This document shows positions 5,771 to 47,300 of a stretch of 64,000 bases of DNA, one piece after another. The stretch's first letter is position 1. Every line of letters begins with the position of its first letter. The translations under genes were made by a program, and so were the position numbers. The notes beneath the pieces were generated by a model. It saw only the letters and a program-made list of their open reading frames with translations. It was not told the DNA's origin and did no database searches. The stretch is from Haliclona indistincta. Its lineage: Eukaryota > Porifera > Demospongiae > Haplosclerida > Chalinidae. The stretch covers positions 5,995,152-6,059,151 of the forward strand of contig OZ024784.1 of assembly GCA_964017065.1 (NCBI GenBank), given 5' to 3'.

Positions 5771-8700
5771 ATGAATGAGAACTCGAGCGAAAACGAGGCC
5801 TCAGAGGAGATTACAAAAAAGCAGAGTAAGTTTGCATTATAAAACTTCATAACCGTTGCGGCTTACCTTCTATTTTACAGAAGATGAGTCACAGACCTCC
5901 TCTTCCGGACAACAAGGGGAACTGAACCTTGCTGGAGACATGGGAGCAAAAGAGTCACAGCTGTTTACTGCCCGTGACCACCCTACTGAAGCGCTGGGAG
6001 AAATGCGAGTGATGAGAGAAGACAAACGGCTGTGTGACATAGTGCTACTCGTGCAAGACCGCAAGATATACGCTCATCGTCTTGTGCTGGCAGCTAGCAG
6101 TCGCTACTTCCGGTCTATGTTTGCAGGTGACATGTTAGAAAGCAGGAGCACTGAGGTGGAGCTAAAAGAAGTGGAGGCAGACGCTATAGAGTTACTGGTC
6201 GACTTTTCGTACACAGCCAAACTCGAGATAACGGTTAACAATGTGCAGTCACTGATGACTGCCTCCTCTTTGTTCGACTTCCCTGCAGTGTTTGAGGCTA
6301 CTGCAAAGTTTCTCACTGGACAGCTACATCCTTCAAACTGTCTTGGAATTAGGAGCTTTGCTAAAACTTACGGCAGTGATTCTCTGGTGAAGGGTGCGTC
6401 ACGCTATTTCAGGATTCATTTTATAGATGCAGTCAAGAATGAAGAGTTTCTTGGGCTGCATGCTGATGTGCTGGCTGACCTAATAGACAGTGATGATGTT
6501 AATGTCCGATCAGAAGAGGATGTGTTCAAAGCAGTGGAAACATGGTTTCAGCACAATCCAGAAGATCGCAAACAGAGTCTACCTATTCTACTGACACATG
6601 TGCGTCTTCCTCTTCTCTCGCTTGGATTCTTGAAGGCACGTGTTGAGACCATACCTTATGTTAAGAAAAGTCTTGAGTGTCGCGATCTTGTTGATGAGGC
6701 TAAGAATTTTCATCTTTTTCCGGCCGATTTCTGGCAAGCTAAGTCATCGCGTCTTCAACCACGGAAGTCGACTGTCGGTATTCTATTTGCTATTGGTGGG
6801 CGTGGTGCAGTTGGCGAGCCATTTTGCAGTGTTGAGTGTTTCGACTTTCGCACAAATCAGTGGTATGAAGGACCTGAGCTGAAGTGAGAGCTGATTGTTT
6901 GTCTTGCTTTTTCATTTAGTTTATTGTCTGTAGGTCTCGGAGACGTCATGTGGGTGTTGCATGTTTGAGTGGAAAGCTGTATGCAGTTGGTGGTCATGAT
7001 GGAAACCAACATCTCAACACTGTTGAATGCTATGATCCCAAGAGAGGAAAGTGGGAGTATGTTCAGCCCATGAAAACACTGAGACGGGGAATAGCTGTTG
7101 GTGTCTTAGGAGGACCGATGTATGCTGTAGGTAAGAGCCAACATGTTGTGTCAACTGTGTGTGTGCTCTCAATGTTGAGATTAGCTGTCTTGTGTTTACA
7201 CATACACAATGGAATTGATTGAGCCGACACTATCTTTTTAGTGTGCGTAATGTGTGCACATGTCATAGTGGGGCTGTGGGTTATGTAGATGTCCAAACTA
7301 TACACAAAAAAACAAGATTTATAATGACATTACCTTACTTGGGGGCAAAATAGTACCAACAAACTACCTGAATCAGTTCCAAGAAATACTGATAGTGTGA
7401 TCAGCAGTGCTTGGCTAGTGCATAATGATGACCATGTTGTTTATGTCCGGCCAAATGCAAGTTTGAATACCTCATTATATCAAAGAGAACTATTCATACC
7501 ATAGTTTAATTGTTTGTGTTACTACACTGCAATGCCCCTCGGCACATAGCAAACAAAACACTCAATATTCAAGTCATAGAGAAATGTTACAGCCTTCTGC
7601 AACGACAGTTGCAGAAGGCTGTACATGTAGCTATTCTGAGCTGTTAATTTATTCTTAACATCTTTTCTGAATAAGTAGTCTAACTGCTGACCCAATTATC
7701 GATACAGCAATTTTCCAACACTTTACCGTCAAGCGTTGCACGCATGCATGTCTCAAAACTCTGCTTGTGAGGTGTGGATATCAGCAGAGACATCATAAGT
7801 TGATATCTACCGCTTCCTTCTACATGTACTGTGATTTGAGCTGCCTCGGCTGTGACAAAAACTCTGAGAGCCGTATCTGTTTTTCTTCAGATCACAGTGT
7901 ATGTTGAGAATTGATTATTGCAAATTCTTGGGAAATTGCTGTAGGTGTGAAGAGGGTCAGTAGTTATAATTATTGTATGGGGATATAATTTGAAACACTC
8001 ACATCCTCACAGGTGGATTAGATGATGTGAACTGCTACCGTACTGTTGAGCGTTATGATCCACAGTCAGATGAGTGGACAGAAGTTGCCTCACTCAAATC
8101 CCCACGAGGAGGTGTAGGTGTGGCAGCGCTATCAAACTACCTGTATGCTGCTGGCGGCAATGATGGGAGTGCTTCTTTGCAGACAGTGGAACGGTACGAC
8201 CCACACACTAACAAGTGGACTGAAGTGGCTCCTATGGCAAAGAGAAGAGCCGGAGTTGGTCTGGCAGCTCTCAACGGATACCTATATGCTGTTGGTGGCT
8301 TTGATGATGCATCACCCTTAGACACAGTGGAAAGGTATGACTAATAATCTTGTTCTAAATTTCAACATCAAAATAATTATTTTACAATTTTTGATGAACT
8401 TTTTATAGTGAAATAATATTGCAATGGAAAGGTAATACCGTATTTCTTCTAAAGATTCGGCACCCCTTATTTTTCGGCATGTTGTCGCTGAAATGTGTAC
8501 TAAACCTCCAAATTTCGGCAAGTGCTTTGGTTCTTCGTCACGGTAAGTCAACAGCCCGACGTGAAAAGTCCTGTGCTTCATGGAAAAGAGCTGTAGATGC
8601 GTTCTCATTCAAAATACGTGCTCGTCGCCACACCTCCAATTATTCAGTGCTTTTGGAACTTCTGCCACAATTACTTCCAAATATTGGGCAAGCAAATCTG

Positions 8701-17951: not shown

Positions 17952-18571
17952 TTATTTTTTTATAATTATTTGAAAAATGTCAGCTGCAGCCACTTTCTTG
18001 TCATGCTTATTTCCCAGCAAGAATTGACACTCTTGTTTAGGACCGCACCAGACGTAGAAGTACAAGCTTTGACCATTTTCATCAGTTATGTACAAGTGCT
18101 TTCGACTGCTATCATTACCAGGAAGGTCTTCGTACTGCCACCAAACAATGCTGTTGCTAGTTGACTGCTGCAGGAAAAAATTGCCATAGAAATGATCACA
18201 CAAATTAATTTTCACTCACATTTCCATCTACAGTCAAATTATTGGTATGAGCAGTAATTACTCGATTAGGAAAAGCGCTGCTGGTGAACTTCACTTTGCT
18301 GTCACACCATTCCAAATTAAATTTATCTGCAAAAAGAGAATATGCAGTCTTCTATGTAGTCGTATTAGGCTCTCTCTTTATTCTCACATTGACACTCGTC
18401 AAGGTTAGCACCGCCAGTAGCCAAGATGAGTTGACCGTTTGTGCTCATTGCCAGGCTTGAACCCATATTTCCGGTCCTCTCCAAGTTTACCACTTGCAGT
18501 GGAAGATCATCACCGTCAAGTGCGACTCGTTCAGGAGCACAAAAAATGTTTGCTTCGGTTGGTTTCGCCAT
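17952..18571 (-). CDS. beta-trefoil-like small protein A (candidate IL-1-fold ligand)
   Basis: Exons 18388-18571, 18220-18326 and 17952-18167 give 168 aa. No signal peptide is visible (MAKPTEANIFCAPERV). The body is a series of short hydrophobic beta-strand-like units: VVNLERTGNMGSSLAM, GQLILATGG, YKFNLEW, VKFTSSAFPN, RVITAHTNNLTVDGN, HLYITDENGQSLYFYV, CQFLLGNKHDKK, DIFQI. Length, strand rhythm and lack of a leader suit the beta-trefoil cytokine fold (IL-1/FGF), and residues 75-87 closely resemble the IL-1 family signature. B and C are paralogues with the same three-exon layout and the same intron phases (1, 0). Fold and ligand role are inferred; an intracellular beta-trefoil protein or a lectin is possible. 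Confidence 0.7.
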
Positions 18572-18731
18572 CTGATCTGATGTGCAACAAATGTACCCCG
18601 ATCCCTTATGTCGCACGTTTATGTCGATCCCTTATGTCGCGCGCACGTTTATATCGATCCGGGCGTGGCCTTTTAACTTGTTATTTTTTATTGCACATGG
18701 ACACACACTGCTATACAAGCTACAAACCTAG

Positions 18732-19300
18732 CTAATTACGAGTTAAAGGAGTAATCTGGAACACATCTTCCATCTGTACTTCCTTGTCCTTGCTGTTCCC
18801 CACCATAAAGGTGCTTTTGGCTACATCAGCAACATCAACAGTTACATAGAAGTACAGTTTTTGCTCGTTCCCATCTGTAATGTATAAATGCTCTTTGCTG
18901 CGATCGCCGATATAGCCGCGATTCCACCAAACTTTGCTTCCAGATTCTGCAGACTATAAAAGAAACAAAACTGCAGACTGAGTCAAGAGAACACACTCAC
19001 ACGTCCATCCACTGTCAGATTTATATCGTGAGCAGCAATCTTAAGTTCACTGTGTGCACAGCTAGTGAATTGAACGAGCCCATATTCGTCGTATAACATT
19101 TCAAACTTATCTGTAATAATTCAGAATTGGATGTGTTCGTAAGGTCCTTGTTAGTACTCACATTCATCCTTTGTGATATCGGCACCCCCAGGAGCGAGAA
19201 AAAGTTTTCCGCTTTTCTCCATTCCCAAATACGATCCATCGTTTCCGGTTCTCTCCAGGCACACTTTGATTTCAACAGTCTCCTGTGATCTTCTCGCCAT
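18732..19300 (-). CDS. beta-trefoil-like small protein B, head-to-head with receptor R1
   Basis: Exons 19162-19300, 19001-19110 and 18732-18953 give 156 aa. It is clearly paralogous to A: CLERTGNDGSYLGM, GKLFLAPGGAD, YKFEMLYDE, VQFTSCAHSELKIAAHD, INLTVDGR, VWWNRGY, HLYITDGNEQKLYFYV, TFMVGNSKDKEVQMEDVFQI. No signal peptide. ATG 19300 was used because the in-frame extension upstream starts at GTG, not ATG. The start lies only 135 bp from the start of receptor R1 on the other strand, so the two must share a promoter region. Gene A follows 160 bp downstream on the same strand. Function is not known; see the ligand-receptor finding. Confidence 0.72.
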
Positions 19301-19435
19301 CTCGGATAGTTGCACTAATGTCTGCAGCAGCTTGAGCCCCACCTTTTTATCCTTGTAGAGTAATGAGGGGGAACCCCGGGTGGGATCCCTACCACTACGT
19401 CATTTAATAAACAGTCAAGGAAAACAGAGAAGCTG
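19301..19435. promoter_or_regulatory. bidirectional promoter of gene B and receptor R1 with a kB-like site
   Basis: 135 bp separate two divergent start codons. GGGGAACCCC at 19368-19377 fits the NF-kB consensus GGGRNWYYCC on both strands. GGGATCCC follows at 19383-19390. No TATA box is obvious. The kB match could be chance. Confidence 0.5.
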
Positions 19436-21481
19436 ATGATGACTGCGCTGTTGTTCTATTTGATCATCCCAGGTTAGTACGTGTCTCCTGGATTGTTATT
19501 CTGTCATACACACGACGCATGCACTGATTTGTAGTCCTTATCATTCTCTACACTAACTCAGGACTTCTAGGGATTCCGCACCTAGTGATCTGTACACCCA
19601 CGCAGCAATCCAGCAATCAAGGTCTTTGCAAATGTCATTTAGAGCACTATTCAAATCTCATGCCCAGCCGGCAGACGGGCACTAACATCACATTATGGGT
19701 TTCATTCACGACTGAAAGGATCTTACAGCATCAGCAAGATGTCTACTGGACTTATCACATTTCTCCAAGTGCGAGTTTTCCTGGAAGCCTAGATCTAGTG
19801 GACAAGTCACAGCTTCTGTACAATGCAAGTCTGACCATCTTCTTAAATGTCACAACAGATGGTAACACATACTTTGGCCGTTATAAACTTCTGGTTTGTA
19901 ATAAGACATTGCAGACATTCAATGTACAAAAGCAAGATCCGTGTGCTATTCAGGAGCAACTGATAGTTGGCATCAACACCTCTGCTGTTATACCAACTCT
20001 CAATAATGAAAATGTGTCTCTTCTTTGCATCGTTCATGGTTACTATGGTCCCTGGGTCAAATGGGATGGTCCAAACTGTTCCAGGGATCAATGTTGGACA
20101 ATCAGCTTGTCCAACTATTACATTGACTCGAACTGTACCTTCTACAGCATATTGACGATCACTGATCCAACCACCGATGATACTGGATTGTACAGCTGCA
20201 GCCTGTCTAAATCATCCTCTCTTACAACAAACATAAGTAAGCAAAAATACACACTAGAAATAATTATGATTATCAATTTTTACAGCTATTTTCAAATTAC
20301 CACAAATAATGCCTGACATAAATACATATTTGCGGCACAACCAAGCAGATCAATTGAACGTGACGTTCACAATACAAGGGGTACCTGACTATGTACACCC
20401 TATAACGACAATAACGAACAGCTTGGATGTGAAAACACCTTGCAACTCAGCATGGTGCAGCATTATCATTGAAAGAGTGCCTTACCAAAATAAGACATTG
20501 ATTAAATTCATTGTCGATGGTGGACGGCTACATCCTGACAACTACACATTTCAAGTGTGTGTCAAGTTGAACAACAATGTATCATCTTTGTATGCTGAGA
20601 GGTACAACCAGAATCCAAACTGCACAACCAAACATGTAAACATATACAAAGGTGATAACTATTTTGCATACCAACTGTCAGTAATTATCACAATGTGTTA
20701 TACCAACAGATGAATTTGTAACGATCGTCACTGCAAGTTCAGTTGGTGGTACTGGCATCATATTAATACTACTAGCAACCATCATCCTTCTAGCGGTGTC
20801 AATCCGTTGGTATAGAAGACGACCACTGTATAGAAGAATTCAAGTTCGTCCTCTATCTGAAGAGGACATAGACAAGGGTGAGAAACATGTCAATACTTTC
20901 ATGAAATTTTTTCCTCTCTGATACTAGACTGTGGATCCTGCAAAAAGATTTTCATCTTAAACGATGACAGCACTGATGGAGAAACACGAGACCTGTGTGA
21001 TATCCTCAACAATTTATCTGGAAAAGCTGATGGAAAGAGTAGAGCATACAAATGTCATTGCATACAGGATATGGACAGAATGATTGATAACTACAGCAAC
21101 TGGGTTGTTTCTCAAATAAAGGAATCAACAATCGTGCTACTTGTCTGCTCAGACAAAATGCATGAATGCCTCATGCAAGTAACCGGCCCCAATAATTTAT
21201 ACGTTACAACTGGAGTTCTTTGTGGAATCACCATCTTTAATGCTATAAAACAAACAATTGGAAAGTTCTCTTTGGTATCATTAAACCGAACCACAAATTT
21301 ACACCAAGTTCCAACAACTTTAGCAGAGAGGAAGCATTACGTGATAAATACTGACGAATTGTGTGCACGTGAAAGACTGTGTGCTGCTGAAGACGAGCTT
21401 CAAGCAGAGATGGAGAAATACATAGGCAGTGCAGCAGGAAAGGATTTGAACAGTTTGCTAGAATATCTTCATCATATGTAG
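19436..21481 (+). CDS. Ig-like receptor R1 with cytoplasmic STIR (TIR/SEFIR) domain
   Basis: Five exons (19436-19472, 19562-20236, 20286-20651, 20710-20877, 20928-21481) give 599 aa; all introns are phase 1, as in Ig-superfamily genes. Signal peptide MMTALLFYLIIPGLLG. The ectodomain has three modules. The second is a clear Ig (VSLLCIVHGYY, WVKWDGP, DDTGLYSCS). The first and third (about 14-120, 238-355) are Ig/FN3-like, with many N-glycosylation sites. Membrane segment about 364-391, followed by basic WYRRR. The tail (416-599) begins KKIFILNDDSTDGETRDLC and has WVVSQIKESTIVLLVCS and GKFSLVSLN, as in SEFIR/TIR folds. Classical TIR box 2 (RDxxPG) is absent. Known sponge Ig-TIR receptors have this architecture. 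The ligand is unknown. Confidence 0.82.
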
Positions 21482-22384
21482 ACAATTTCAAACAAATTTC
21501 AAACACTGTGTCAGTAATAATAATTCATATTTTTATTTACAAAAAAAACTCGAGTCCTATTGTTTTTTTTTTGTTTTTTTTTTAATTTACACTGAAAGTT
21601 ACAGTGAGGTAATCCCAATAGCTAGAGCTAATACTAAGGGACACCTAAAAGAAAAAAACAAAACAAAAAAAACAATAAAAATAGCACCTAAGGTGCAGAT
21701 GCCTCGGTGGAATGACACTATCCACCATTCCACAAACACAGCAACTGCAGATGCATGTACATGTATACAGGATTTTTGTACAGCAATCAACACAAAGCAG
21801 TGCTTTAGTTATGCAATCAGAAGCCAATCAGTGCTAACCACAATTGAACTGGGCGTGTCTACAGCCTTGTTTATAGCACAGCACACGCATACCACGAGCG
21901 AGATAGCTTCCATAGCTTGCTTACACGATTTGTCTGGACCTGCGCTGCTAGCCTGTAGTAAATTTCTAACCTATCAGCTTCTAGGCAGTCAACTGTGAAC
22001 AGCTTTGCCTTTGGAGAAGTCCAGATCGCCAGCAACGGTAAACAAAGTAGGCAAATCACGCCATAACTCGAGAACGAAGCTTTGTATCGAACTTTCGCTA
22101 GTTCACATCCGAGATAATACCGAGTTCTACCTCTATTGCAAGTTTCAGAGCTCATCGTTCAGCGTGCGCTGCAAAAATAGTGTAACAGACAGACTGACTG
22201 ACAGAACGACAGACAACGCGATTACAGTATGCCTCGTGGCTCCGCCCACCGAGGCATAATAATAATAGCGACAAAACAAAGAAACAAATGTAAGATAGTT
22301 TATGATTTGAGTCTTAAAGTATGACAAAGTAGATGAATGCACAATAACACTAGGTAAAGATTGTTTTTGTTTGCCTATTTTTTA
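21482..22384. other. R1-gene C convergent spacer
   Basis: Poly-T and poly-A tracts around 21540-21680 are followed by a dispersed repeat. Nothing coding was recognised. Confidence 0.5.
21698..22256. mobile_element. non-coding element with ATGCCTCGGTGG inverted ends
   Basis: The left end ATGCCTCGGTGG (21698) and right end CCACCGAGGCAT (to about 22256) are inverted copies. The right half matches the repeat in the DnaJ intron at 2111 in inverted orientation, including TCGAGTTATGG-like and CTGAAACTTGCAATA-like blocks. No open frame of note; a MITE-like family. Confidence 0.65.
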
Positions 22385-22935
22385 CTAAATAATTATTGGT
22401 TCCACTTTAAACTTTCCTTCATCATCAAGTAGAGTACTCTTCTTCTTTAATTTTAGATTATCACCCTCAATGCAAAGATACAAGTCCTCTCCAGAACCAC
22501 AAACCTTGAGATAAAGTTGAGAATAACCATCATTCAAGTCATTCTTGTACCAAACAGACAAATAGTTGCTACCACTCTATAGCGAGAAAATAATGTAATT
22601 AATAATATTTATAGAGTAATTGATAATATAGACTCACAACAATATTCCCATCTACTGTGCCAGAATTAGGGTGACCTGTAATATACAACTCTGTATTGGG
22701 CACACTCTGGATCTTCAAAGGTAAAGGCGGCTCAGAATTTTCTTGAAGTATAAACAGAAAAGTGTCTGCATGTGGAAAATATACTTTTCACACAAGTGTA
22801 CTTGTCTCACTCACATTTAGCTGGTTCAATGTTTCCTGAATTCGCAACTTCCATAGAACCATCACTATTCATGACCAGGTATGACTCTTCATTTGGTCTT
22901 ATGCGCGCCTTGTATGTTATACCTATCAATCCCAT
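22385..22935 (-). CDS. beta-trefoil-like small protein C, head-to-head with receptor R2
   Basis: Exons 22815-22935, 22638-22765 and 22385-22576 give 146 aa, with the same exon count and phases (1, 0) as A and B. MGLIGITYKARIRPNEES lacks a signal peptide. Strand-like units are SYLVMNSDGSMEVANSG, YTFLFILQE, LKIQSVPNTELYITGHP, GTVDGN, YLSVWYKND, SQLYLKVCGSGEDLYLCI, DNLKLKKKS and GKFKVEPIII. It is more divergent than A is from B, but it shares the Y-x-F at the start of exon 2 and TVDGN at its end. An upstream 5' UTR exon is possible because an acceptor-like TTTACAG lies before the ATG. The start is 50 bp from a near-perfect 871-bp palindrome. Confidence 0.68.
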
Positions 22936-22985
22936 CTTTGATCGCTTTGTAGCACAAGCATCAAACACTGTAAATTCACAGTAAT

Positions 22986-23856
22986 TAGAGTAGATTATCT
23001 ATAATCGGTCAACATGTATATTCGTACGCTATTGCCAGCAAAACCAACGCAGCTAAGACGGTGTCTGCCACAGCAAACTATAGCCACTTGCATGTGTAGA
23101 AGACACAGCAAACCGTTAGCTCCAGCGTCCTTCCTGAAGGCGACAACAAACAATAATAGACACGTGTACGAATTTCCCTAAGATCGGTAGAATCTCTGTA
23201 TTTTCGTTTCACCACTCGCTACGTCCAACGAAGTAGAGGAGCTGGCTAATTTGGTGCTGCTAGCATACACCCATCCTTGTGCTAAACGATGACCAGCAGA
23301 AGTAGCCGAACACTCTCCTTGAACACAAGAAAAACGCGACAACATCACCCCCGCTGACCCCTCAAAGATCGTCATCAACAATACAGTAAAGTATTGTGCT
23401 TATGGAGAGTCATATTAAAATTATAATAATACGTTTCCATAAGCACAATACTTTACTGTATTGTTGATGACGATCTTTGAGGGGTCAGCGGGGGTGATGT
23501 TGTCGCGTTTTTCTTGTGTTTAAGGAGAGTGTTCGGCTACTTCTGCTGGTCATCGTTTAGCACAAGGATGGGTGTATGCTAGCAGCACCAAATTAGTCAG
23601 CTCCTCTACTTCGTTGGACGTAGCGAGTGGTGAAACGAAAATACAGAGATTCTACCGATCTTAGGGAAATTCGTACACGTGTCTATTATTGTTTGTTGTC
23701 GCCTTCAGGAAGGACGCTGGAGCTAGCGGTTTGCTGTGTCTTCTACACATGCAAGTGGCTATAGTTTGCTGTGGCAGACACCGTCTTAGCTGCGTTGGTT
23801 TTGCTGGCAATAGCGTACGAATATACATGTTGACCGATTATAGATAATTTACTCTA
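22986..23856. repeat. 871-bp near-perfect palindrome between gene C and receptor R2
   Basis: Left arm 22986-23406 and right arm 23436-23856 are each 421 bp and are reverse complements with about four mismatches seen by eye. A 29-bp AT-rich spacer separates them. The arms contain no gene and no obvious target-site duplication. Both arms point outward into a gene start: C on the left (ATG 22935) and R2 on the right (ATG 24099). Confidence 0.93.
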
Positions 23857-24098
23857 TACATAATTATAAACACAGTCAGTCATCACGTACCTTGATCAGA
23901 AGTACTAAAAACCGTTAAACTATACTTGACTTATATAGGGTTGCTGCTGGTTCCAGGGGCCTGGTCTTGACATCATCAATCACCACATTTGGTTTCGGTG
24001 TTCAGTGTTTTTACAAATGACCGCCATCGCGCGCCACGTGGCTATTATCACGTGAGCACACTTTTAGTTCTGCTTAGCAGCAAGCTACTAATGAAATC

Positions 24099-27000
24099 AT
24101 GTCCTTGGCTAAGTGTATCATTTTTCTTGGTGAGTTACGTAGACCAAATAAAATCGTTATTGATGATGCATGACCGTCTTCAGGTTGTATTGCCCAACTT
24201 GCCCTTGGCAGTATAGGGCAGCATTGTAACTGTAATGGTGAGTCTTAGCAGACTGTGTTGCTTGCTACACACTCGCGATCTTCTCTCAATTCAGTGTCGA
24301 CTCTCAAGATTTTAAAAGGCATAAATGATTACACTCCAGCAGTTGTCCTTGGAGCCAACTTCTCAATGAAGTTAAATTTTAGTGTAGATTGCACTGGTGC
24401 TCCTGTCATTTCTTGGAAACAGACAACTGGTGGTACTAATATACAGATAGCAGCAACAATGCTCGGTGATAGTGTGTACATGGCTGAGCTAGCTATCACA
24501 AACACTAACCGTTCTACATACGGAACATACAGAGTCAGTTTCTGCAATACGCTGCTAAACGTGTTCACAGTATTTTCGCTTAGAGAAGGTGATTGTATTT
24601 GTGTTAACACCTGTATGACAATGTTTTCACCAATCCTATAGAATGTGATACCACCACGTTACCTCCTGTCCCTGAAAACATCACCATGCCACTAGTTGTA
24701 CCAAACTGGAACGACGGCTCCTTTCGATCTGTCAACTTTTCTTGCATGTATTATGGTATTACTGATCCATCTAAATATCTACCTTCATGGAATTACACTC
24801 AACCCAGCCATGTTCCAAAACCCTTGTCAATAGACAGCTATGACATGAGACTAGTAGACAAGTGCCATTTTCTGTCATCAGCAGCTGCTAGTAAGCCTGG
24901 AAGATACACCTGCTTTGCTATGTCTTACAGTCGAAGATTCAACAAAAGTATCAGCACTCAGTTAAGTAAGTGAATAATAACAATCACATCCATTTACTAC
25001 TACTCATTTGTAGCTTTTATAGATTTTCCTGAAGTGCAAAATAACCATCAACTGGTCAGTGCTGTCAGTAGCACAGCAGTTGTAACACTCAACTGGATTG
25101 TAACAGGTTATGATAATTATACAATACCTCAAGTGATCGTAAACAGCACCCTACCACTCAGTAAACTTACCAATTCTAGCAATCTCACTATACAAAGGTC
25201 TGAAGTTGGTTTTGCCCAGTACACAGTTAGTCTAATACTATCACATCTTCCTCTTGGAAAACATCAAATTCAACTCTTTGTGCTTCTGAATAATAAAACT
25301 GTTTCGAACATCCGCAGCTATAACGACAAACCAAACGCAAGTGCTCCTACCACCATAACTGTAGACACCAACCAAGGTGAGTAGAGGTCAAAATGTGGTG
25401 GTGTCAGATGTTGTTAGGGAAAGTCACAGGGATTATCCCCTTACAAGTACTATGTATACAACCAAGCTGTGGTGATTAAGGTGGTGGTGCGCCAGTTTAA
25501 TGAGATTCATAACTTTACAAGTGGCTTTATTTTCCAGCAATAGTATTTTGTACAGGCGTGCTCCAGTATGCATTGTGTTTGTCTATCGATATACATCGAT
25601 TATAGCAAGTTTCAGTCACGAAGTGTTAGCTAACGTGGAGCAGCGAGCTCGCCCAGTATAGACCGGTCTGTGGCTGCTATCTCCAGTTTGGCTTGCTTGC
25701 TCCCGAAAGAACTTCGTTTACAGCTAACAAATTCCAGCGCGCACAGATGTACAGAGCGATTTTTCGATACTCCTTTGCTAACGCGGCAAAACAGCAAACC
25801 TAGACCAGAAAAAATTCCTTAACAAAAAATCTAGATCGTATTACGGAAATTCGCTCTGTACGTCTGAGCGCAAGGTGGCACTGCATGCTGCTGCGCTTGA
25901 AGCGCGTCGATCTATTGCTCGACAGTAGAGATAGCAGCCACAGACGCTTCATGTATTATTTCCCCCATACTGTTATGTAAATCGCTGTAGTTATAAAGTC
26001 TAGTTATTAATAAAACACACGTTGCGTGGGTGTTGAATATTAACTAAGTGCACCGCCACCTTAAGGTGATGGGTAAACAGTTCGCCCAATTAATATTCAC
26101 AAAAATTTTTTTATGCACTGTGCAAAATATGAAGAACACGCTAGAGCGCTGTGAAGGCCATCAATGAAGATGCTAAGCCTAATTAATATTCACAAAAATG
26201 TTTTTATGCACTGTGCAAAATATGAAGAACATGCTAGAGCGCTGTGAAGGCCATCAATGAAGACGCTAAACACTGTTCTTTCTCTCTTGAGCTATATTCA
26301 ACGCTGGGTACTACGCAACTCGGCGACAGCAGGCACAATTGGAGTGATACTAAACTGCAAAACGGCGTGCCACTTTTCGCGCGCGCTGTAACAGTGTCGC
26401 TACAGAGTCCATCATCTACTGATGGGTTAGCATCCTCCGGAGGGCAGTAGACTATTAACTTGGACGTCTGGGCGACTGGCTCTGAGTAAAACGCAAAATA
26501 GTCTTGAAACGCTCGCCATTTTACAGCCTTTTCACGACATTTCGACCCATAACTTACAAACAAACAAACTCTCAGCCAAGTTAATAGTCTACTGCCCTCC
26601 GGAGGATGCTAACCCATCAGTAGACGGTGGACTCTGTAGCGACACTGTTACAGCGCGCGCGAAAAGTGGCACGCCGTTTTGCAGTTTAGTATCACTCCAA
26701 TTGTGCCTGCTGTCGCCGAGTTGCGTAGTACCCAGCGTTGAATATAGCTCAAGAGAGAAAGAAAAGTGTTTAGCGTCTTCATTGATGGCCTTCACAGCGC
26801 TCTAGCGTGTTCTTCATATTTGCACAGTGCATAAAAACATTTTTGCGAATATTAATTAGGCGAACTGTTACCCGTCACCTTAAGAACACATGTTAGGAGT
26901 TGAAAATTATCTTACTGTAGGCAAAAATGCTCATGTAAATAAGTTGTTGTGCATGTTACTAACTTACTTTTCTCCTGTACACAGTGGAGCCTTGGAAAAT

Positions 27001-30000
27001 TGCAGTATATGCTGTTGCTGGTGTTGTTGTCTTCATCGGTATTAAAATGTTGGCAATTGTGACAGTAATTTTTTTCATTAAAAAGAGACCAGCAATAAGT
27101 GGAAAAGGATTCAATAAATTGAAAGAGGATCTTTCTGAAGTATCAGTACCAGTTCCTAGAATAGGTATGTCACGACTTGTGTAACTTTGTATGATGGTCA
27201 ATAAAAAACACTGGAAATGCAGTTAGGTCGAATCCTTCCTTAACTTTTGCACAATGGAAAAACCGCCTTCACGCTGAAAACAAAAGCACTACTTTCCAGT
27301 GTTTCTTCATTGTTACTCATGAAAAATGTCAGGAGTTCGGCATAGTAAATGCACTGTATAGCTGTACATTTCATCAGAGTATGAAAGTCAGATTCTACAA
27401 TAGGAGCCGAAGGTGTATTGCAGCCCATAACTAAAGACTAAGGTATTAAACTGCCGTTTTTGACATACTGAACTCTTGGTATTAGCCAATTATACACAAA
27501 CTGTTGATAAGACCTAAGAGAACAATCACATAGCTGCCTAAACTTCGACTGAAGGACACCTCTCTACACGTAAAATGGGTAATGGAACATGTGGGATAGA
27601 TCATGTGATCTCCCGTTAAAAATCTTTGGACTAAAACTCTATTAGCACAAGGATTGCTCAATAAAGTTGGTAAAGTGATGAACCTGGAAAAGGTCAATTT
27701 TTTTCCAGCAAGCCTAGCACATTTAGTCTAGGCCCTGACTAAGATTTGTATGCATTTAATTTAGGAGAGGATAACTCAACTGTTTTAGGGTAATTTGACC
27801 CCAAGGAATAAGATGTGATATGTGCCAAATTGTCTATCCGCTGCGAAATACCCGAAAATGACCACGCCCTTTTTATCGGCAGTGTCAATAACAATAATAT
27901 TTGCTCTATCTTCTTAACCATTTTAGTAACCTACTTTCTGGCAACTGTTCTAAGGTATATTGTAAGATTCTGATGGTTTGAAAACAGTACAAGTACAGGG
28001 TATTACCAACAAAAAGACACAATTTATTAACTTGAGGAGTCACTTAATATAAACTTAGGCAGTATTTAGTATTACAAACATGATGTCTACAAAAATTAAG
28101 TCATTCAGTGATAGGGTTTTTGCAGGAGCTACTTTACACTTGCAGTAGATGTGTATTTGCAACACTTGATTCCAGCTACCCTGCAGCGACATGTCCATTC
28201 TTGTGGGCACATTTACCACATGTACCACATTTACCACATCAGGAAGGTCTTCAGGCTTGGAGGTAACAACTATTAAATTTCTTTGTGAAACCATACGACA
28301 TTTCTAAACCATCTTCAAGTGGGGCTTGTATCCACAGCTGTTGTAATTATGCCATTTGAACATGCTTTCTTGCATTGGCTGATGTGCAGGGAGTTTTCTC
28401 AAAGTCCATTTTGAGGGAATTGCTATTAAAAGCAGCAAGACGCAAGTCATCAAATGTTTCCAAGTCTTTTGTTGGCTTGAGACACCTTACAAGACAATTT
28501 CTGCCGTCTGTATCTTCCGTGTCTCTGTCAGCTCTGAGTTGTTAAAGACTTAAAGTTCTGTATCAGTGCACGGTTAAATTGTTGTGGATAGCTTTCATTG
28601 CTGCATGGTTCATAGAAATCTTGCTAGTTGTATCACATCCAGTCAGAGCACGGAGTGCAGGGAGACACCTTTTAAGCTTGTCACCGGTGCCGTAGTAAGG
28701 TTTCTCAAGCCAACAAAAGACTTGGAATCATTTGATGACTTGCGTCCTGCTGCTTTTTTAATAGCAATTCCCTCAAAATGGACTTTGAGAAAATTCCCTG
28801 CACATCAGCCAATGCAAAAAAGCATATTCATAATTACATCAGCTGTGGATACAAGCCCCACTTGAAGATGGTTTAGAAATGAAAACTGAGTCATATGGTT
28901 TCACAAAGAAATTTAATAGTGCCTGGTATTGTTACCTCCAAGCCTGAAGACCTTCCTGATCCTTGTACATGTTGTAAATGTGCCCACAAGAATGGATATG
29001 TCACTGCAGGGTAGCTGGAACCAAGTGTTGCAAATACAGCAAGTGTAAAGGAGCTCCTGAAAAACCCTACATGTATCACTGAATGACTTAATTTTTGTAG
29101 ACATCATTTTTGTAATACTAAATACAGCACTCCTCAAGTTAATAAATTGTGTCTTTTTGTTGGTAATACCCTGTATTTGTACTGTTTCCAAACCATCAGA
29201 ATCTTAAAATTAAACTCTTTAAGGTGGCGGTATACCCGTTTTTATGAATATTAATGAGCGACTTTCTTTTATCTGCAGCCCGTGACAGAGCAACGCTAGC
29301 AGCGTGAAACTCGCTCTGATGCATCAATGAGTGTGTCTCAATGTATAATGCAGCTTGAAACGTTGCACAATATTCTACACCAAGGAATAATGTAGGAACA
29401 ATCGACATCGTACGGATACGCATTTTTCTAGCCAAAAATCTCTCCTGACTAACCGTGCAGCAAAGGTTATCAGCTGAAATTCGACTCTTATAAACCATTT
29501 CTAGGTGCTGACGAAGAGTTTTCTGAATTTACTTTTTCTCATTTTAAGAAAAACACTTTTACATTCTAAATCATGGCTGATTTTGCAGTGACGTCCATGT
29601 TTGTCGATGCATAGAACAGCTACGTTCAGCGTGGGTCAACAAAACTCTTCGTCAGCACCTAGAAATGGTTTATAAGAGTCGAATTTCAGCTGGTAACCTT
29701 TGCTGCACGGTTAGTCAGGAGAGATTTTTGGCTAGAAAAATGCGTATCCGTACGATGTCGATTGTTCCTACATTATTCCTTGGTGTAGAATATTGTGCAA
29801 CGTTTCAAGCTGCATTATACATTGAGACACAATCATTGATGCATCAGAGCGAGTTTCACGCTGCTAGCGTTGCTCTGTCACGAGCTGCAGATAAAATAAA
29901 AGTCGCTCATTAATATTCATGAAAACGGGTATACCGCCACCTTAAAATAGAGATGTTCATGCATTTCTGAAAGGTGTAGCCATTTTTTGCAGTGACTATT

Positions 30001-31060
30001 GGTTTTGGAACACATCCCAATACATTCCTTAGGGTCATATTACCTTAGAGCAGTTGCTAGAAAGTAGGTTACTAAAATGGTTAAGAAGATTGAGCAATTA
30101 TTGTTATTGACACTGCCGATAAAAAGGCGTGGTCATTTTCGGGTATTTCGCAGCGGATAGACAATTTGGCACATACCACATCTTATTCCTGGGGTCAAAT
30201 TACCCTAAAACAGTTGAGTTATCCTCTCCTAAATTAAATGCATACAAATCTTAGTCAGGGCCTCTACTAATTAAAACTAGCAGTTTTCTGAACAAAAAAA
30301 GCAGAAATCTCCTTGCTTTTGAGCTTAGTTCAGTGAAAAGGTGAAGTATGGGACAGTGCCAGATTTGTCATCCTGCATCCTTTAGAAATGTTCTTGTATC
30401 GTCAATAAAGGTTTATAACCAGCGTGCATTATTGCAATAATTTACTACTGCAGCAGTGACGTTTAATAATTGTTGACCTTTTTTGAATTGTTGACCTTTT
30501 TTGTTTGTTTTTTCTCAGTTTATGGAGATGTGGTACTAATCTATCATCTTGGAAATGGTGAAGATAAATTGTTTTATGATGACATAGTCAGACTGGCAGA
30601 CATTTTATCCTCTACCAGAGGAGACAGGACATTTAGGTTTGATGGTTATTGTCGCGGTGATGTCGGAGTTCACTGGGACAACAAAGTTGCCGAGTGGATC
30701 AAAAATGCTGAAATTGTGTTGCTGGTCCTAACCCCTGAACTGAGCCACCGTCTTACCGCTTCAGATACGCCAGCTCCAATCTCAATGGTGTGTGGATCAG
30801 TCGGCTCTCGGGTTATTTCCAATTTTGCATCAGATATAATTCCGGGATCTCGAACTTTCATTCCGATATTCTTAAACATGCGAATAGACAAAAAGTTGAT
30901 TCCTGCGAGTTTAATATCTAATGAGCACTATGAAATCGATCTAAAGACTATTCCAGTCGACATAAACACCACTGACAAGCTCCAGCATTACATTAATGAG
31001 AATCAAGCCAAGACATGTGGGTTGATCAATCTATTGAGACGTTTAAATGGAGACGTGTAA
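24099..31060 (+). CDS. Ig-like receptor R2 with cytoplasmic STIR (SEFIR/TIR) domain
   Basis: Seven exons (24099-24129, 24184-24237, 24295-24588, 24642-24965, 25023-25376, 26985-27164, 30519-31060) give 592 aa; all introns are phase 1. The ATG at 24099 was preferred over in-frame-looking ATG 24091 because only it joins exon 2 in frame, giving signal peptide MSLAKCIIFLGCIAQLALGS. Three Ig-like modules are each encoded by one exon (residues 29-126, 127-234, 235-352), for example VDCTGAPVISWKQ and KPGRYTCFAMSY. Membrane span about 356-384. The tail (413-592) reads YGDVVLIYHLGNGEDKLFYD, then VHWDNKVAEWIKNAEIVLLV and RTFIPIFLNMRIDKKLIP, which fits SEFIR better than canonical TIR. Introns 5 and 6 are loaded with foldback elements. 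Confidence 0.83.
25476..26064. mobile_element. TTAA-target MITE 1 in R2 intron 5
   Basis: Element 25480-26060 is bounded by TTAA on both sides. Ends are GGTGGTGGTGC and GCACCGCCACC, inverted. Internal inverted segments include GTCTGTGGCTGCTATCTC and its complement. No coding capacity. A TTAA target with these ends suggests a piggyBac-type MITE. Confidence 0.75.
26061..26883. mobile_element. TTAA-target foldback MITE 2, sharing its TTAA with MITE 1
   Basis: Element 26065-26879 with TTAA on both sides and ends GGTGA(T/C)GGGTAA. It folds back on itself over about 290 bp, with a loop near 26450-26580. The left arm carries an extra tandem copy of about 75 bp (26090-26250). Mirror-image ORFs of 68 aa at both arms are palindrome artefacts. 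Confidence 0.8.
27730..30263. repeat. 2.5-kb imperfect palindrome filling R2 intron 6, with a nested MITE
   Basis: Ends AGGCCCTGACTAA and TTAGTCAGGGCCT are inverted. Long matching stretches include AGTTGAGTTATCCTCTCCTAA-type ends, the CGAAATACCCGAAAATGACC block, and the TATTACCAACAAAAAGACAC block. The turn lies near 28490-28690. The right arm is interrupted by a separate 719-bp element at 29223-29941 and has about 110 bp absent from the left arm. Confidence 0.85.
29219..29945. mobile_element. TTAA-target foldback MITE 3, nested in the palindrome
   Basis: Element 29223-29941 between TTAA copies. Ends GGTGGCGGTATACCCG are inverted, and arms of about 300 bp mirror each other around a loop near 29510-29650. 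Mirror ORFs starting MVYKSRIS in both arms are artefacts of the symmetry. Its ends relate it to MITEs 1 and 2. Confidence 0.85.
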
Positions 31061-31493: not shown

Positions 31494-33227
31494 TCACACA
31501 GCTGGTTCTTGTAGCTCGCCTTCTATTAGTTCATGTAATTTTCCCACTACTGCATTTAATTTCTTCTTGGTTGGTTCATCAGGCAAATCAAAAGCTCCCT
31601 TTTTGATGATAAATCCAAACACAGCAATGATAATCGATGGAATGTAAGCGGCAAAGTTGCTATAAGCTAGCAGCTGGTGGTGCTCACTCCTGGCAACCAC
31701 AAACTGATAAAGCAGAATCAAGCAAACATAGGTTAATGGCAGCAGTGCTACAAGCACCATTCCAAGCGATAAATGTAGAAATGTCCCAACACAAATTAAG
31801 CATTTGTTACACCAGCCATGGTTACATGTACATGTAAAGGTAGTATTAATAATAGAACGATGATTTACAACCCATTCTTTTACACTGCAGAAGAAGACAG
31901 CAAGCACAATAGTAGTGCTATAAAACAAAGCAACATGAAGGGCAAGCAATGACGATGTATCGACTGGGTAAGCAAATAGAAGAATAATTGTGGGAGCAAA
32001 GCTAAGCACTAGAATACCAGTGAAACCAGACAGGCTAAATACAGCAATAAACCCAGCAATATGTAAAACACACTTCTGAAGAGCTGGGATTTTCTTATCA
32101 AACTTAAAGTACAAAGCACTGAAGAATGTCACTACCAGGAGCCAGAATAACAGAGCAAACATAAATCCTGTCTTCATGCGATCGAACTCATTGATATACC
32201 TTGAGAGTTGATGGAAAGCAATACTCACAGATATGATTGTATAGCCAGCACATACGGTAGTAGCTCCAGCAAGAGTTAGTTTGTTATAGGATACCTCTTT
32301 ATCTGGTGTTTGAAAAAGATCTCTTATTATTTTGAAAAGAAGTGGTATTAAGATTGGCGCCAATGTCATACCAAGAACAAACCCGATTGAGTAAGTAAAT
32401 TTAAGAATTCCTCTGCCATATTGGGCATCGGGAGAGAAGTCATTCACTGAGCTAGTATAATTTTGAACAGAAGTACAATCTAGTGTAACACCTTTATCAT
32501 CTGCAGTGGCAAAATGGTAACTTTCCCTCTGTGAAACTTTAGCAAATGCTCTCAGCTAAAGAAGAGATCAAAAATCAACTATTATTTCAAATGTAAATTA
32601 TCCCACTGAACACTAAATGCTTTTCATTGTGAATCTATCACTTACCCATTGGTTTAATTCTCCCAGAGCCTGTTCTATTAGTTGTGTTGTTGGATAACAA
32701 CCAAATCTGGTTAAATCAACATCCAGTACCAAATCAAGTGAAGACAAACTTTTTGTCCCATCCCACAAAAGTGATTCGATGTCAAAATTATTAGACAAAT
32801 AGGGAAGACTTTCTGAGATCTGTAGTAACCAGAAAGGTTGCTGAAAGCGAAGATGATTAATAATAACAGGATGAAAGATCAAATATATATCTCGGCTAGT
32901 CCACCCAAATGTGTAGATGCCATCTTGAAAGCAGACTGATTCATTGCTACCAGGACAAGATTCTGTTTGATATGACATGTCAATAGAAGATGTCATGTTG
33001 AGTTTATATGTGACTTTCAGAAGCACTGGTGATATTTGTGTGTAAGGATAGAAGACTGATTGCAAAAGAAAGATGTTGTCTCTCTCACTTGTGTTATACA
33101 GAGCACTCCGAAAAATTTTGAACAAAGTAGCACAGTCCTGCTGATAAGGCTCACTGATGTTGCATTGCGACTGTGCACAGCTCACAATGATTGAAGTGAT
33201 CAAAAGAGAACCCAATCTGTTTACCAT
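31494..33227 (-). CDS. orphan multi-pass membrane protein with N-terminal ectodomain
   Basis: Two exons (32646-33227, 31494-32555) give 547 aa. A signal peptide (MVNRLGSLLITSIIVSCAQS) is followed by a ~220-residue ectodomain with several N-x-S/T sites and Cys (NISEPYQQDCATLF, SCPGSNESVCFQDG, DLTRFGCYP). About eight hydrophobic segments follow, from LKFTYSIGFVLGMTLAPILI through FAAYIPSIIIAVFGFII. A Cys-rich connector (TCTCNHGWCNKCLICVG) sits between the sixth and seventh. The cytoplasmic C-tail is short and charged. No family recognised; it has neither GPCR motifs nor clear channel signatures. It lies tail-to-tail with receptor R2. Confidence 0.7.
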
Positions 33228-43775: not shown

Positions 43776-44351
43776 TGATACACAAACCTCACGTGCAGAG
43801 TTAGTTAATTCATGAGCTGAGTAATGCTATTTAGTAATAGTGATGACTATGCTCAGTCCCATGAGTATCTGATTCCAAAATAATTTGTACCACATAGATA
43901 AGCTGCTTGACTACATGTAGTTATATATATATCTAACAATGCTTATACCTCTTCTGAGTACACCACTGTAACACACCAATTAGCGAGCAATAACAAGCTT
44001 CAGGAATGTTGTTACTACAGTGAGTAGCGAATCATCGATTGAGCACGCGTGGGTGTGGCTACACGTTTCAGCATTAGCAAAATAGTGTTCACTGCCAAGC
44101 GCCACTGTACACAAGTTGATAGAAGAGTTGTACTGTGAAGCGGGAAGCTTGAAAACGTCTTTCTAAGGTGAACTCATTGCAGCACATAATTATTGTTGGC
44201 GCTGTAAAGCTACTGTGAGATACAATCGACTGCTCCGATTCTTAACTGCGCTTCTACCTAAGCTTGCCGTGAGTGCTGAAACGGCCATGTCAAGAACATT
44301 CTACAGATAACACAATCTTAAGACGCAGCGCAGTGAGTGATCTAAAATACC
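43776..44351. other. upstream region of the giant cadherin
   Basis: 43800-43876 is a diverged copy of the repeat at 31226-31305. The rest probably holds promoter and 5' UTR; no gene seen. Confidence 0.4.
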
Positions 44352-47300
44352 ATGCACGAATTGTTCTGGGCTTCTTGTCGCATGCGACTACTGCGAACCG
44401 CAGCATCTCTGTACCTGGCGTTATTAGCCAGCTCTTTAATACACACAGCAACACAGGCCAGTGCTTCTGTCTCTTATTTACAAGTTAAGCCTGGAGACCT
44501 TGTGCAAGGAGCAAATCTGACGCAAGTGTTTGAAGATGTCGAAGGCTCTCTTGCTCTCAAGTTACAACAAAGTGGTTCACGCCCTCCTTCTCAAGAAAGT
44601 TGCCCACAAGATGTTTTTACGGTAATACAAGAGACCAGGCACTTGCACCTACTCAAGAGTATAAATACAAGTGCCTTTGATCAACCTGTCTGTGTCTCAA
44701 ATGGCACTGAACACCTCTCTGCTGTGGAAACATTTGCTTGTTTTGTGATTGGAGAAGGTCCAACGCTCTCCTACAGCACTACTATTATCATTCATGTTCT
44801 CCCTGATCTCCAAAATCTAGAGATCACCTTTCCTCTCTCCTCATACACTGCCACCGTTGTAGAAAATCAAACAAATGCTCTCGTTGCTATCCAAGAGGAT
44901 TTCAGGGCTATCACTTCTCCTGTTGAAGGCCTTGCAGCAGTGCAATATGAAGTACTTAATGAAGCATCATGCTTCACTGTTCTTATAGAAACAGTTGGCT
45001 GTGATAACCACCCAAAGGTTTTGACAACCAAACCACTGCAAGCCAATAGCAGTGGGACTGAGCATATCATAACTATACAGGCATTCTTGGGGCCTCATTC
45101 TGCTTTAGCTAACATATCTATTGAAGTCATTAACACAAATTTGCATCCTCCTGCATTCCACAATCTACCGCATAACTTGACTATTTCTGAGAGCGCAAGT
45201 ATTGGTACGATTATCTACAAACTGCAAGCTACTGATCTAGACAATGGTGTGAACGGTAAGGTTAGATACCGTCAAACCAACCCTTTGTCTTCCCAGGGAT
45301 CACCCACTACTATCAATCCTGTCACTGGTGAGTTGTATCTGGTTTCTCCACTCAACTATGAAGCAATAACTCAGTTGGATATCACAATCGTCGCTTTTGA
45401 CTTGGCTGTATATCCCATGTCTGCCACCACAACGTTGACCATCTTTTTAACAGACTCTAATGAGCAATCTCCAGTAATAACTATCACCAATCAGCTTCAA
45501 CCTGTTCTTGAGAATACTCCTACTGGCACACCTATAGCCTCTGTTTTAGTTACTGATGAAGATTCTTCAGATTTTTCCCTTTCCTTGGCTTCACGATACT
45601 GTACAAACTGCTTCACATTAGATAATGAACTCATACACGCTAATGGAAGTCACACATATGATATCCTTGTCAATGGAATTCTCAACTATGACCCAAATGG
45701 TCTTGTACTAGTGCTTGTTGCTAGTGACAACGATGACAATCCTCGGTCAACAACAGTGACACTCAAAGTAGACTTGCAAGACGTGAATGAGAGGCCTTTC
45801 TTTCCTACAACTCAAATCTTGGCTTCTGTCAGGGAGAAAGATCCTGTAGGTAGCCATGTTGTTGTACTGCAGGCACAAGATGAAGATCCTGGTAGTAATG
45901 GTGACCTCAGCTACGCTATAGCATCTGGCAATGAACTAAACTGGTTTAGTATCAATCCTCAAGTCGGTCTGATTAAACTGAATAATCAAGTTAACTCAAC
46001 AATAGCAGAATCAGTCACACTAGAAGTGACTGTGCGTGACGGTGGATCACCACAGATGATGCAGTCAGCAACTGTAATCATTGCCATCAATGACTTGGAT
46101 GATCACTCACCTGTATTCAACCAAAACGAATTCTACGTAACTGTACCTGAAACATGGAACCATTCTACTCCACTATTCGACTTCACTGCCACTGACATTG
46201 ACACCGAATGCAGCGGAGCTATCACGTATGCAATATTTAACTCTGAGCCTCCAATTTTTACTATTGATGCAGTATCAGGCCTTTTGTTCCTACGACCTGG
46301 ACAATCCCTTGATTACGAGTCAGTCAGAGTAGCAAGAGTTATGGTACGAGCAAGAAGTCAAGGAGACAATCCAAATGCACTCGCCGATGCTACACTAGTT
46401 CTTAACATCACGAACGAGGACGATAACTCACCTGTTTTGGATCCTCCTGGTTGTCCGTGCTGGATTACTGAGAACCAACCAGCTCCGGTATCTTGTCCTC
46501 CTCTTACTGCCCATGATCCAGACTCAGCGAACAGCATCTTACAATTTAACATTGTCAGTGGAAATGAATTGGGGAACTTCATTATTAATTCTTCCACAGG
46601 AGTGGTGTTGACTACCAGTGCTCTAGATCACGAAGTGCAAGACAGCTATGCTCTTACGATCTCAGTTCAAGATGACGCAGGACATACGTCAAATGAAGAG
46701 ATGATGCAAATAGTTGTCATTGATGTCAATGATGCACCTATTCAATTCATGTATTCAAGTCCTGCGCAGTTATCTGTACCGATTGATTTGCCCGTTGGAG
46801 GTCTAGTAAACAGCCTTTCTGCTCCGCAAAAAGATGCAGGCTATAATGCTCTTACTCTCTACAGCTTTACCCAACAATGCACGGCGGTGACATGCAGCGC
46901 TTTCACTATAGACCCATTGTCTGGTAATCTGTATCTCAACCAAGGTCTTCAAGCAGGTCAAACCTTCAGCTTTACTGTAAGAGCAATGGATTTGTTGAAC
47001 AATAGTGAACAATCAGAGCTGCAAGTCACTGTTACTGTTGACGGGCCTAAAAATCTTCCACCACAGTTTTTTATTGCTGTAGATCAACTACATATCCCAG
47101 ATAACTTAATGACAGGTGCCTTAGTATTTAAAGCAAATTCATCTGACTCTAATACTGTTCAATACTCGATCGTTAGTGAATTATTCTCAATTAATTCGGC
47201 CAATGGAGACATTACTCTCACCAATGTGCTGACGAGCATGGCTGGAGAAAATTTTGTGCTTAATATTTCAGCAACAGATGATGGTTCTCCAATTTTGACA

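Follow-up and report, generated by a model that had tools for sequence, protein, structure and literature searches.

Two sponge gene clusters pairing small trefoil-like genes with Ig-SEFIR receptor genes: a candidate ligand-receptor locus in Haliclona indistincta

A candidate ligand-receptor pair in a sponge genome

We analyzed a 64,000-nucleotide stretch of the genome of the demosponge Haliclona indistincta (contig OZ024784.1, hereafter C2, positions 5,995,152-6,059,151; hereafter the window), which carries three small genes (A, B and C) next to two receptor genes (R1 and R2), and searched the genome, 144 Mb in 46 contigs, for their relatives. As a check of the sponge origin, a genome search with a silicatein fragment gave some exons of 60-73% identity, but the two of them that were read, together with one cathepsin-like exon, have Cys at the active site in place of the Ser of silicatein, and by this check the origin is plausible. 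Our best explanation, held tentatively and at somewhat under an even chance, is that a co-duplicating gene pair occurs in two clusters, of which this locus is one, and that a leaderless trefoil protein resembling FGF and fascin would be the ligand of a receptor with an immunoglobulin (Ig)-like ectodomain and a SEFIR tail. A first-pass annotation of the same DNA had taken the locus for an IL-1-like cytokine and its receptor. That interpretation was partly supported: its spirit held, in that a candidate ligand gene is linked to a receptor gene and the two were apparently duplicated together, but the IL-1 name was not borne out.

Organization of the locus

Gene models were put together one exon at a time. 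They gave the following features, with coordinates counted within the window.

17952-18571, minus strand: gene A, small trefoil-like protein; gene model of 168 aa with exons 18388-18571, 18220-18326 and 17952-18167; relative P0002
18732-19300, minus strand: gene B, small trefoil-like protein; gene model of 156 aa with exons 19162-19300, 19001-19110 and 18732-18953; Pfam FGF match (E=0.032) below cut-off; relative P0001
19301-19435, no strand: spacer of 135 bp that separates the B and R1 start codons, from the gene models
19436-21481, plus strand: gene R1, Ig-like ectodomain, one span and SEFIR-type tail; gene model of 599 aa with exons 19436-19472, 19562-20236, 20286-20651, 20710-20877 and 20928-21481
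22385-22935, minus strand: gene C, small trefoil-like protein; gene model of 146 aa, used as a genome search query, with coding exons 22815-22935, 22638-22765 and 22385-22576
24099-31060, plus strand: gene R2, Ig-like ectodomain, one span and SEFIR-type tail; gene model of 595 aa with exons 24099-24129, 24184-24237, 24295-24588, 24642-24965, 25014-25376, 26985-27164 and 30519-31060

The three small genes lie on the same strand and have three coding exons each, with GT-AG introns whose positions match across all three. Intron 1 is in phase 1 and cuts a Tyr codon in every case (3 of 3), and intron 2 is in phase 0; A shares 46% identity with B and 28% with C. The receptor genes (5 exons in R1, 7 in R2) splice cleanly with every intron in phase 1, and their products share 20% identity. 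When N-terminal hydropathy was measured as the maximal Kyte-Doolittle mean over 10 residues, R1 and R2 reached 2.49 and 2.43, and each has a hydrophobic N-terminus and a single strong membrane span. The corresponding values for A, B and C were 1.18, 0.41 and 0.98, and by hydropathy these proteins have neither a strongly hydrophobic N-terminus nor a strong membrane span. The pairs B/R1 and C/R2 are arranged head to head, with ATG-to-ATG distances of 135 bp and 1,163 bp, respectively. The first-pass annotation had described three paralogous small genes of one exon layout and lacking a signal peptide, two paralogous receptors with a signal peptide and one span, and B and C facing R1 and R2 over 135 bp and about 1.2 kb. 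The gene models bear out this layout, the calls on signal peptides and spans being based on hydropathy only.

Recurrence of the pair in a second cluster

A second cluster was found about 0.28 Mb from the first, and includes the receptors R3, whose start is at L020:4632, and R4, whose start is at L021:954 (L numbers denote stretches of the genome). R3 and R4 are 88% identical across the exon for the first two modules (Ig1-2 exon), over which R1 and R4 share 33%. Two further small genes, D and E, share the strand of R3 and R4 and lie upstream of them, stopping some 0.85 and 1.1 kb short of the respective start codons. D consists of three exons with the intron positions and phases of A-C, and E is 87% identical to D in exon 2 and 77% in exon 3. 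With regard to the order of discovery, R4 was found by sequence and the adjoining R3 also by sequence, and D and E were recognized afterwards from the flanks (2 of 2). In ENA contigs, exon relatives of the small family were also present: P0001 corresponds to exon 1 of B (61% identical across 31% of B), P0002 is a relative of exons 1 and 2 of A with the introns read through, and P0003 resembles a D-type exon 2 (E=0.14).

Each of the four Ig-SEFIR receptors detected (R1-R4) has a small-family neighbor, and the five small genes fall into two clusters, which supports the earlier proposal that the pair was duplicated as a unit. Chance adjacency of small genes and receptors appears unlikely, because the intron phases are common to the family, the genes are paralogous and the arrangement recurs in the second cluster. 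No small-family gene was detected at three other TIR/SEFIR receptor genes (0 of 3), namely two Ig-TIR genes on contig C10, scanned from about 6 kb upstream to 1.5 kb downstream, and one gene on contig C9, scanned on both sides. The C10 genes were the two looked at among eight places in the genome that matched the TIR family, and both had TIR exons beside Ig-like exons (the Ig call was made by Pfam for one and by eye for the other). The C9 gene had a SEFIR domain and a weak FN3 match below the cut-off. Genome searches with B, C, D and the Ig exon of R4 returned members of the two clusters and near-chance matches. Similarly, a profile of A-D, when compared with 4,666 frames from 14 stretches, recovered the exons of A-E, beyond which no match was better than E=0.12; this profile includes D, which had been recognized from its position, and it would miss a trefoil gene that has diverged very far. 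A weak match of B at C2:2.80 Mb was dropped, and its frame reads as an ABC transporter.

By eye, a glutaredoxin-like gene (L020 2467-3008, minus strand) stands head to head with D, and a fragment of this gene (7511-7783, minus strand) precedes E, so that the copied block would have begun inside the glutaredoxin-like gene.

A SEFIR-type receptor tail behind an Ig-like ectodomain

The receptor tail is assigned by its sequence to the SEFIR type (that of IL-17 receptors, Sef and Act1), which is related to yet distinct from TIR. We call it SEFIR because the R4 paralogue matched this family at E=2.8e-10, over the Pfam cut-off, and R2 matched the R4 exon at 7e-9. The competing match of the R4 tail to TIR_2 was 0.0033, below the cut-off, and R2 had no TIR match in Pfam. 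In the genome search with R2, exons were detected at C2:6,298,058 (7.0e-9; part of R4) and C2:6,213,615 (9.6e-5), and the SEFIR family search gave matches at the same two places and on C9. The R1 tail was 28.8% identical to the R4 SEFIR exon, and R1 itself matched SEFIR at 0.022, under the curated cut-off. Thus, the SEFIR domain behind a single membrane span is found over the cut-off in R4, by homology in R2 and below the cut-off in R1. The STIR-type tail of the first-pass annotation is read as SEFIR; an IL-1R-type TIR tail was rejected, and the label of an IL-1-type receptor is not supported.

For the ectodomain, Ig matches were obtained by Pfam in module 2 of R1 (Ig_3, 1.3e-4, under the curated cut-off), of R3, and of R4 (where the ig family was over the cut-off), and the only Pfam match of R2 was a weak one to I-set (0.09). 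Module 3 of R1 and R3 had no Ig match in Pfam. The three Ig-like modules proposed earlier are not confirmed, and their count is uncertain. AlphaFold2 models of the R2 tail (pLDDT 46) and the R4 Ig1-2 exon (pLDDT 35) were too low in confidence to use. In a protein-database search with R1, 7,992 candidates were scored and none was listed at E<=1.

Fold of the small proteins

A-D probably adopt a beta-trefoil fold. Judged by profile comparison, their resemblance to trefoil proteins exceeds chance and is nearer to FGF and fascin than to IL-1. In the first profile test of A-D, none of 40 shuffles reached the scores for FGF and fascin, and 7 of 40 reached that for IL-1. A fuller profile, in which A-D were joined by exon pieces of P0001 and P0002, was scored against 138 entries, consisting of 12 trefoil templates, human proteins among them, and 126 decoys. 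Ranks 1-4 were taken by fascin trefoil 3, fascin trefoil 1, FGF1 and the FGF alignment, whose scores were reached by none of 200 column shuffles, and FGF2 had rank 6. Against the three best templates, 62 other queries scored at most 21.1. The best alignments centered on a single G-x-YL-x-M hairpin, and hence speak for the fold from one part of the protein and not from its full length. In Pfam, B matched FGF with 14.6 bits, under the cut-off of 24, and A, C and D had no match. When B, R2 and the A-D profile were searched against solved structures, there were no matches, or weak and unrelated ones.

The IL-1 templates were placed lower, at ranks 14 (IL1B), 20 (IL-1 alignment), 66 (IL1RN) and 121 (IL36RN) of 138, and the first two scores were reached by 3 and 8 of 200 shuffles. 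Pfam gave no IL-1 match in A-D. A genome-wide IL1 search also found no match; its controls were silent as well, so absence is not proven. Membership of the small proteins in the IL-1 family is not supported by these comparisons. What survives of the earlier description of an IL-1-like beta-trefoil ligand is the trefoil part, on profile resemblance and short of any Pfam family over its cut-off.

Other FGF-like sequences were also noticed in this genome. Tandem single-exon FGF-like proteins, with a leader recognized by eye, are encoded at C4:1.76-1.77 Mb (L030, L031, L034 and L035), and the one member scanned matched Pfam FGF at 4e-4, below the cut-off. In the genome search, FGF exceeded its Pfam cut-off at a single place, C8:7,137,831-7,137,992 (L029), with no known receptor nearby.

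Evidence to the contrary and alternative explanations

Several observations weigh against a co-duplicating pair of trefoil ligand and Ig-SEFIR receptor. None of A-D matched a Pfam family over the cut-off. In the template comparison a cadherin decoy took rank 5 of 138, fascin trefoils 2 and 4 were placed 8th and 19th, and a secreted FGF-like protein from the same genome came 21st. Besides, the masked A-D consensus matched the uncharacterised solved structure 3msw (E=0.0063), a match that could not be interpreted. In the second cluster, the ectodomain and membrane span of R3 are present, but the stretch from there to E yielded no SEFIR exon, and R3 may be truncated or decoy-like. The first exon of E (L020 7920-8083) matches the small family in two frames, for which reason E may be decaying. 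The pairs of this cluster are oriented head to tail, so a divergent promoter used by both genes cannot explain the pairing in general, and the shared control first suggested does not hold as a rule in that form. Finally, block duplication alone would likewise copy neighbors.

The latter point is central to an unlikely but serious alternative, that these genes are neighbors without joint function, the small proteins being intracellular fascin-like or lectin-like trefoils carried along by segmental duplication. Such an origin would fit the lack of a signal peptide, the presence of fascin trefoils among the best templates, and the fact that D/R3 and E/R4 are copies of one block whose receptor exons are 88% identical. 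However, it would not readily explain why adjacency was kept between clusters that differ in gene orientation and show only about 20-33% receptor identity, or why three other receptors are devoid of a small-family neighbor.

Tight linkage and fast divergence could also point to a pair for self or microbe recognition, in which a soluble lectin-like recogniser or marker would be read by the adjoining receptor, the two diversifying together. For the recent copies, dN/dS was 0.68 in the R3/R4 Ig1-2 exon, 0.29 in module 3, 0.59 in D/E exon 2 and 2.5 in D/E exon 3 (61 codons), values given without significance tests. However, decay of E, if real, would raise dN/dS by itself, and we consider recognition improbable.

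Two further possibilities are given very little weight. A bona fide IL-1 cytokine with its IL-1 receptor would agree with leaderless small proteins and an Ig-like ectodomain, and the best IL-1 alignment did fall on the IL-1 signature stretch, with IL1B beaten by just 3 of 200 shuffles; against it are the SEFIR tail, the template ranks and lack of a Pfam IL-1 match described above, and the genuine Ig-TIR genes elsewhere in the genome that have no such neighbors. Equally improbable is a Sef-like brake, with an FGF-type trefoil ligand and with R1-R4 modifying an FGF receptor rather than signalling alone: it would draw on the FGF resemblance of A-D and on the SEFIR-tailed Sef (IL17RD), which restrains FGF receptors according to a passage of PMC7805053, whereas separate leader-bearing FGF-like genes are present in the same genome.

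Relation to known systems

FGFs act on Ig-kinase receptors, and fascin is a cytosolic protein with four trefoils. A-D have their best profile resemblance to these proteins, on the hairpin mentioned above, and differ from them in being of single-trefoil length. The vertebrate IL-1/IL-1R system is similar to the sponge pair in its leaderless proteins of about 150 aa and in a single-span receptor that joins an Ig-like ectodomain to a tail of the TIR/SEFIR superfamily; it differs in that the sponge tail is SEFIR and not TIR, A-D resemble IL-1 weakly, and the ligand and receptor genes are adjacent. The SEFIR domain is shared with IL-17 receptors, Sef (IL17RD) and Act1/CIKS. However, the ectodomain here looks Ig-like and that of IL-17 receptors is fibronectin-III-like, as stated in part of PMC6321704; the C9 gene of the same genome comes nearer to the IL-17 receptor plan than R1-R4 do. 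Sponge Ig-TIR receptors, such as the two on C10 and genes described in sections of PMC12909245 and PMC6208332, also combine an Ig-like ectodomain, one span and a tail of the same superfamily, but the tail is TIR and the C10 genes lack the small-family neighbor within the flanks scanned. A Spongilla FGF ligand recognized from structure is another trefoil-type candidate of sponges that sequence search had missed; portions of that report (PMC10176882) mention no linked receptor, and the likeness is one of description and not of sequence.

According to passages of a review (PMC9020223), IL-1-type receptors preceded their ligands, and IL-1-like sequences are unknown in invertebrates, though receptors exist. 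In Amphimedon no IL-17 gene was found, as reported in part of PMC8353272, and human ligand genes are no nearer to their receptor genes than expected by chance, as given in the abstract of PMC1309615. We found no paper describing a linked trefoil and Ig-SEFIR pair in the open-licence PubMed Central literature. With a linked candidate pair from an early-branching animal, it becomes possible to test whether the use of trefoil ligands by receptors of the TIR/SEFIR superfamily is as old as animals, and the adjacency itself names a candidate partner for each receptor. A broader interpretation, possible though rather doubtful, is that an early-branching animal has a leaderless beta-trefoil cytokine and a receptor with Ig ectodomain and SEFIR tail, the two having been retained and duplicated together as a linked unit, and that the parts of this system are split in vertebrates between IL-1/FGF and IL-17 signalling.

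If A-E and R1-R4 are ligands and receptors, the small leaderless protein would leave the cell through an unconventional pathway or after damage, and, once released, could bind the ectodomain encoded by the adjoining receptor gene. The SEFIR tails gathered in this way might then recruit a SEFIR-Death adaptor, for which the candidate is a gene at C2:6.21 Mb beside a MALT1-like caspase-domain gene. In this region (L018, C2:6,205,001-6,215,000), SEFIR (1.3e-6) and Death (1.8e-11) matches occur in neighboring frames on one strand, and next to them are a caspase-domain frame (3.1e-18) and Ig-like frames that look MALT1-like by eye. The SEFIR and Death frames, and likewise the caspase and Ig-like frames, may each form a single gene.

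Other features of the window

Two additional features were located in the gap between C and R2.

22986-23856, no strand: palindromic repeat of 871 bp between C and R2, with two 421-nt arms that are 99% complementary
23891-23937, minus strand: putative untranslated first exon of C with a TATA box at 23931-23937, from sequence signals only

The TATATAA motif and a splice donor suggest this untranslated first exon, and the palindrome, as judged from splice signals, probably sits in an untranslated intron of C. It has at least 71 matches in the genome and, because many copies are 97-100% identical, is classified as a recently spread repeat. Minus the palindrome, the gap between C and R2 is about 292 bp. 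Two further sets of long inverted repeats are found in introns of R2 (26076-26869 and 27723-30270). Behind R2, a 352-aa hydrophobic open frame (31494-32552, minus strand) had no Pfam match. Further downstream, a single open frame of 4,809 aa (44346-58772, plus strand) with 37 cadherin stretches and EGF and laminin-G matches is, by its predicted domains, a giant FAT-like cadherin, largely encoded in one exon.

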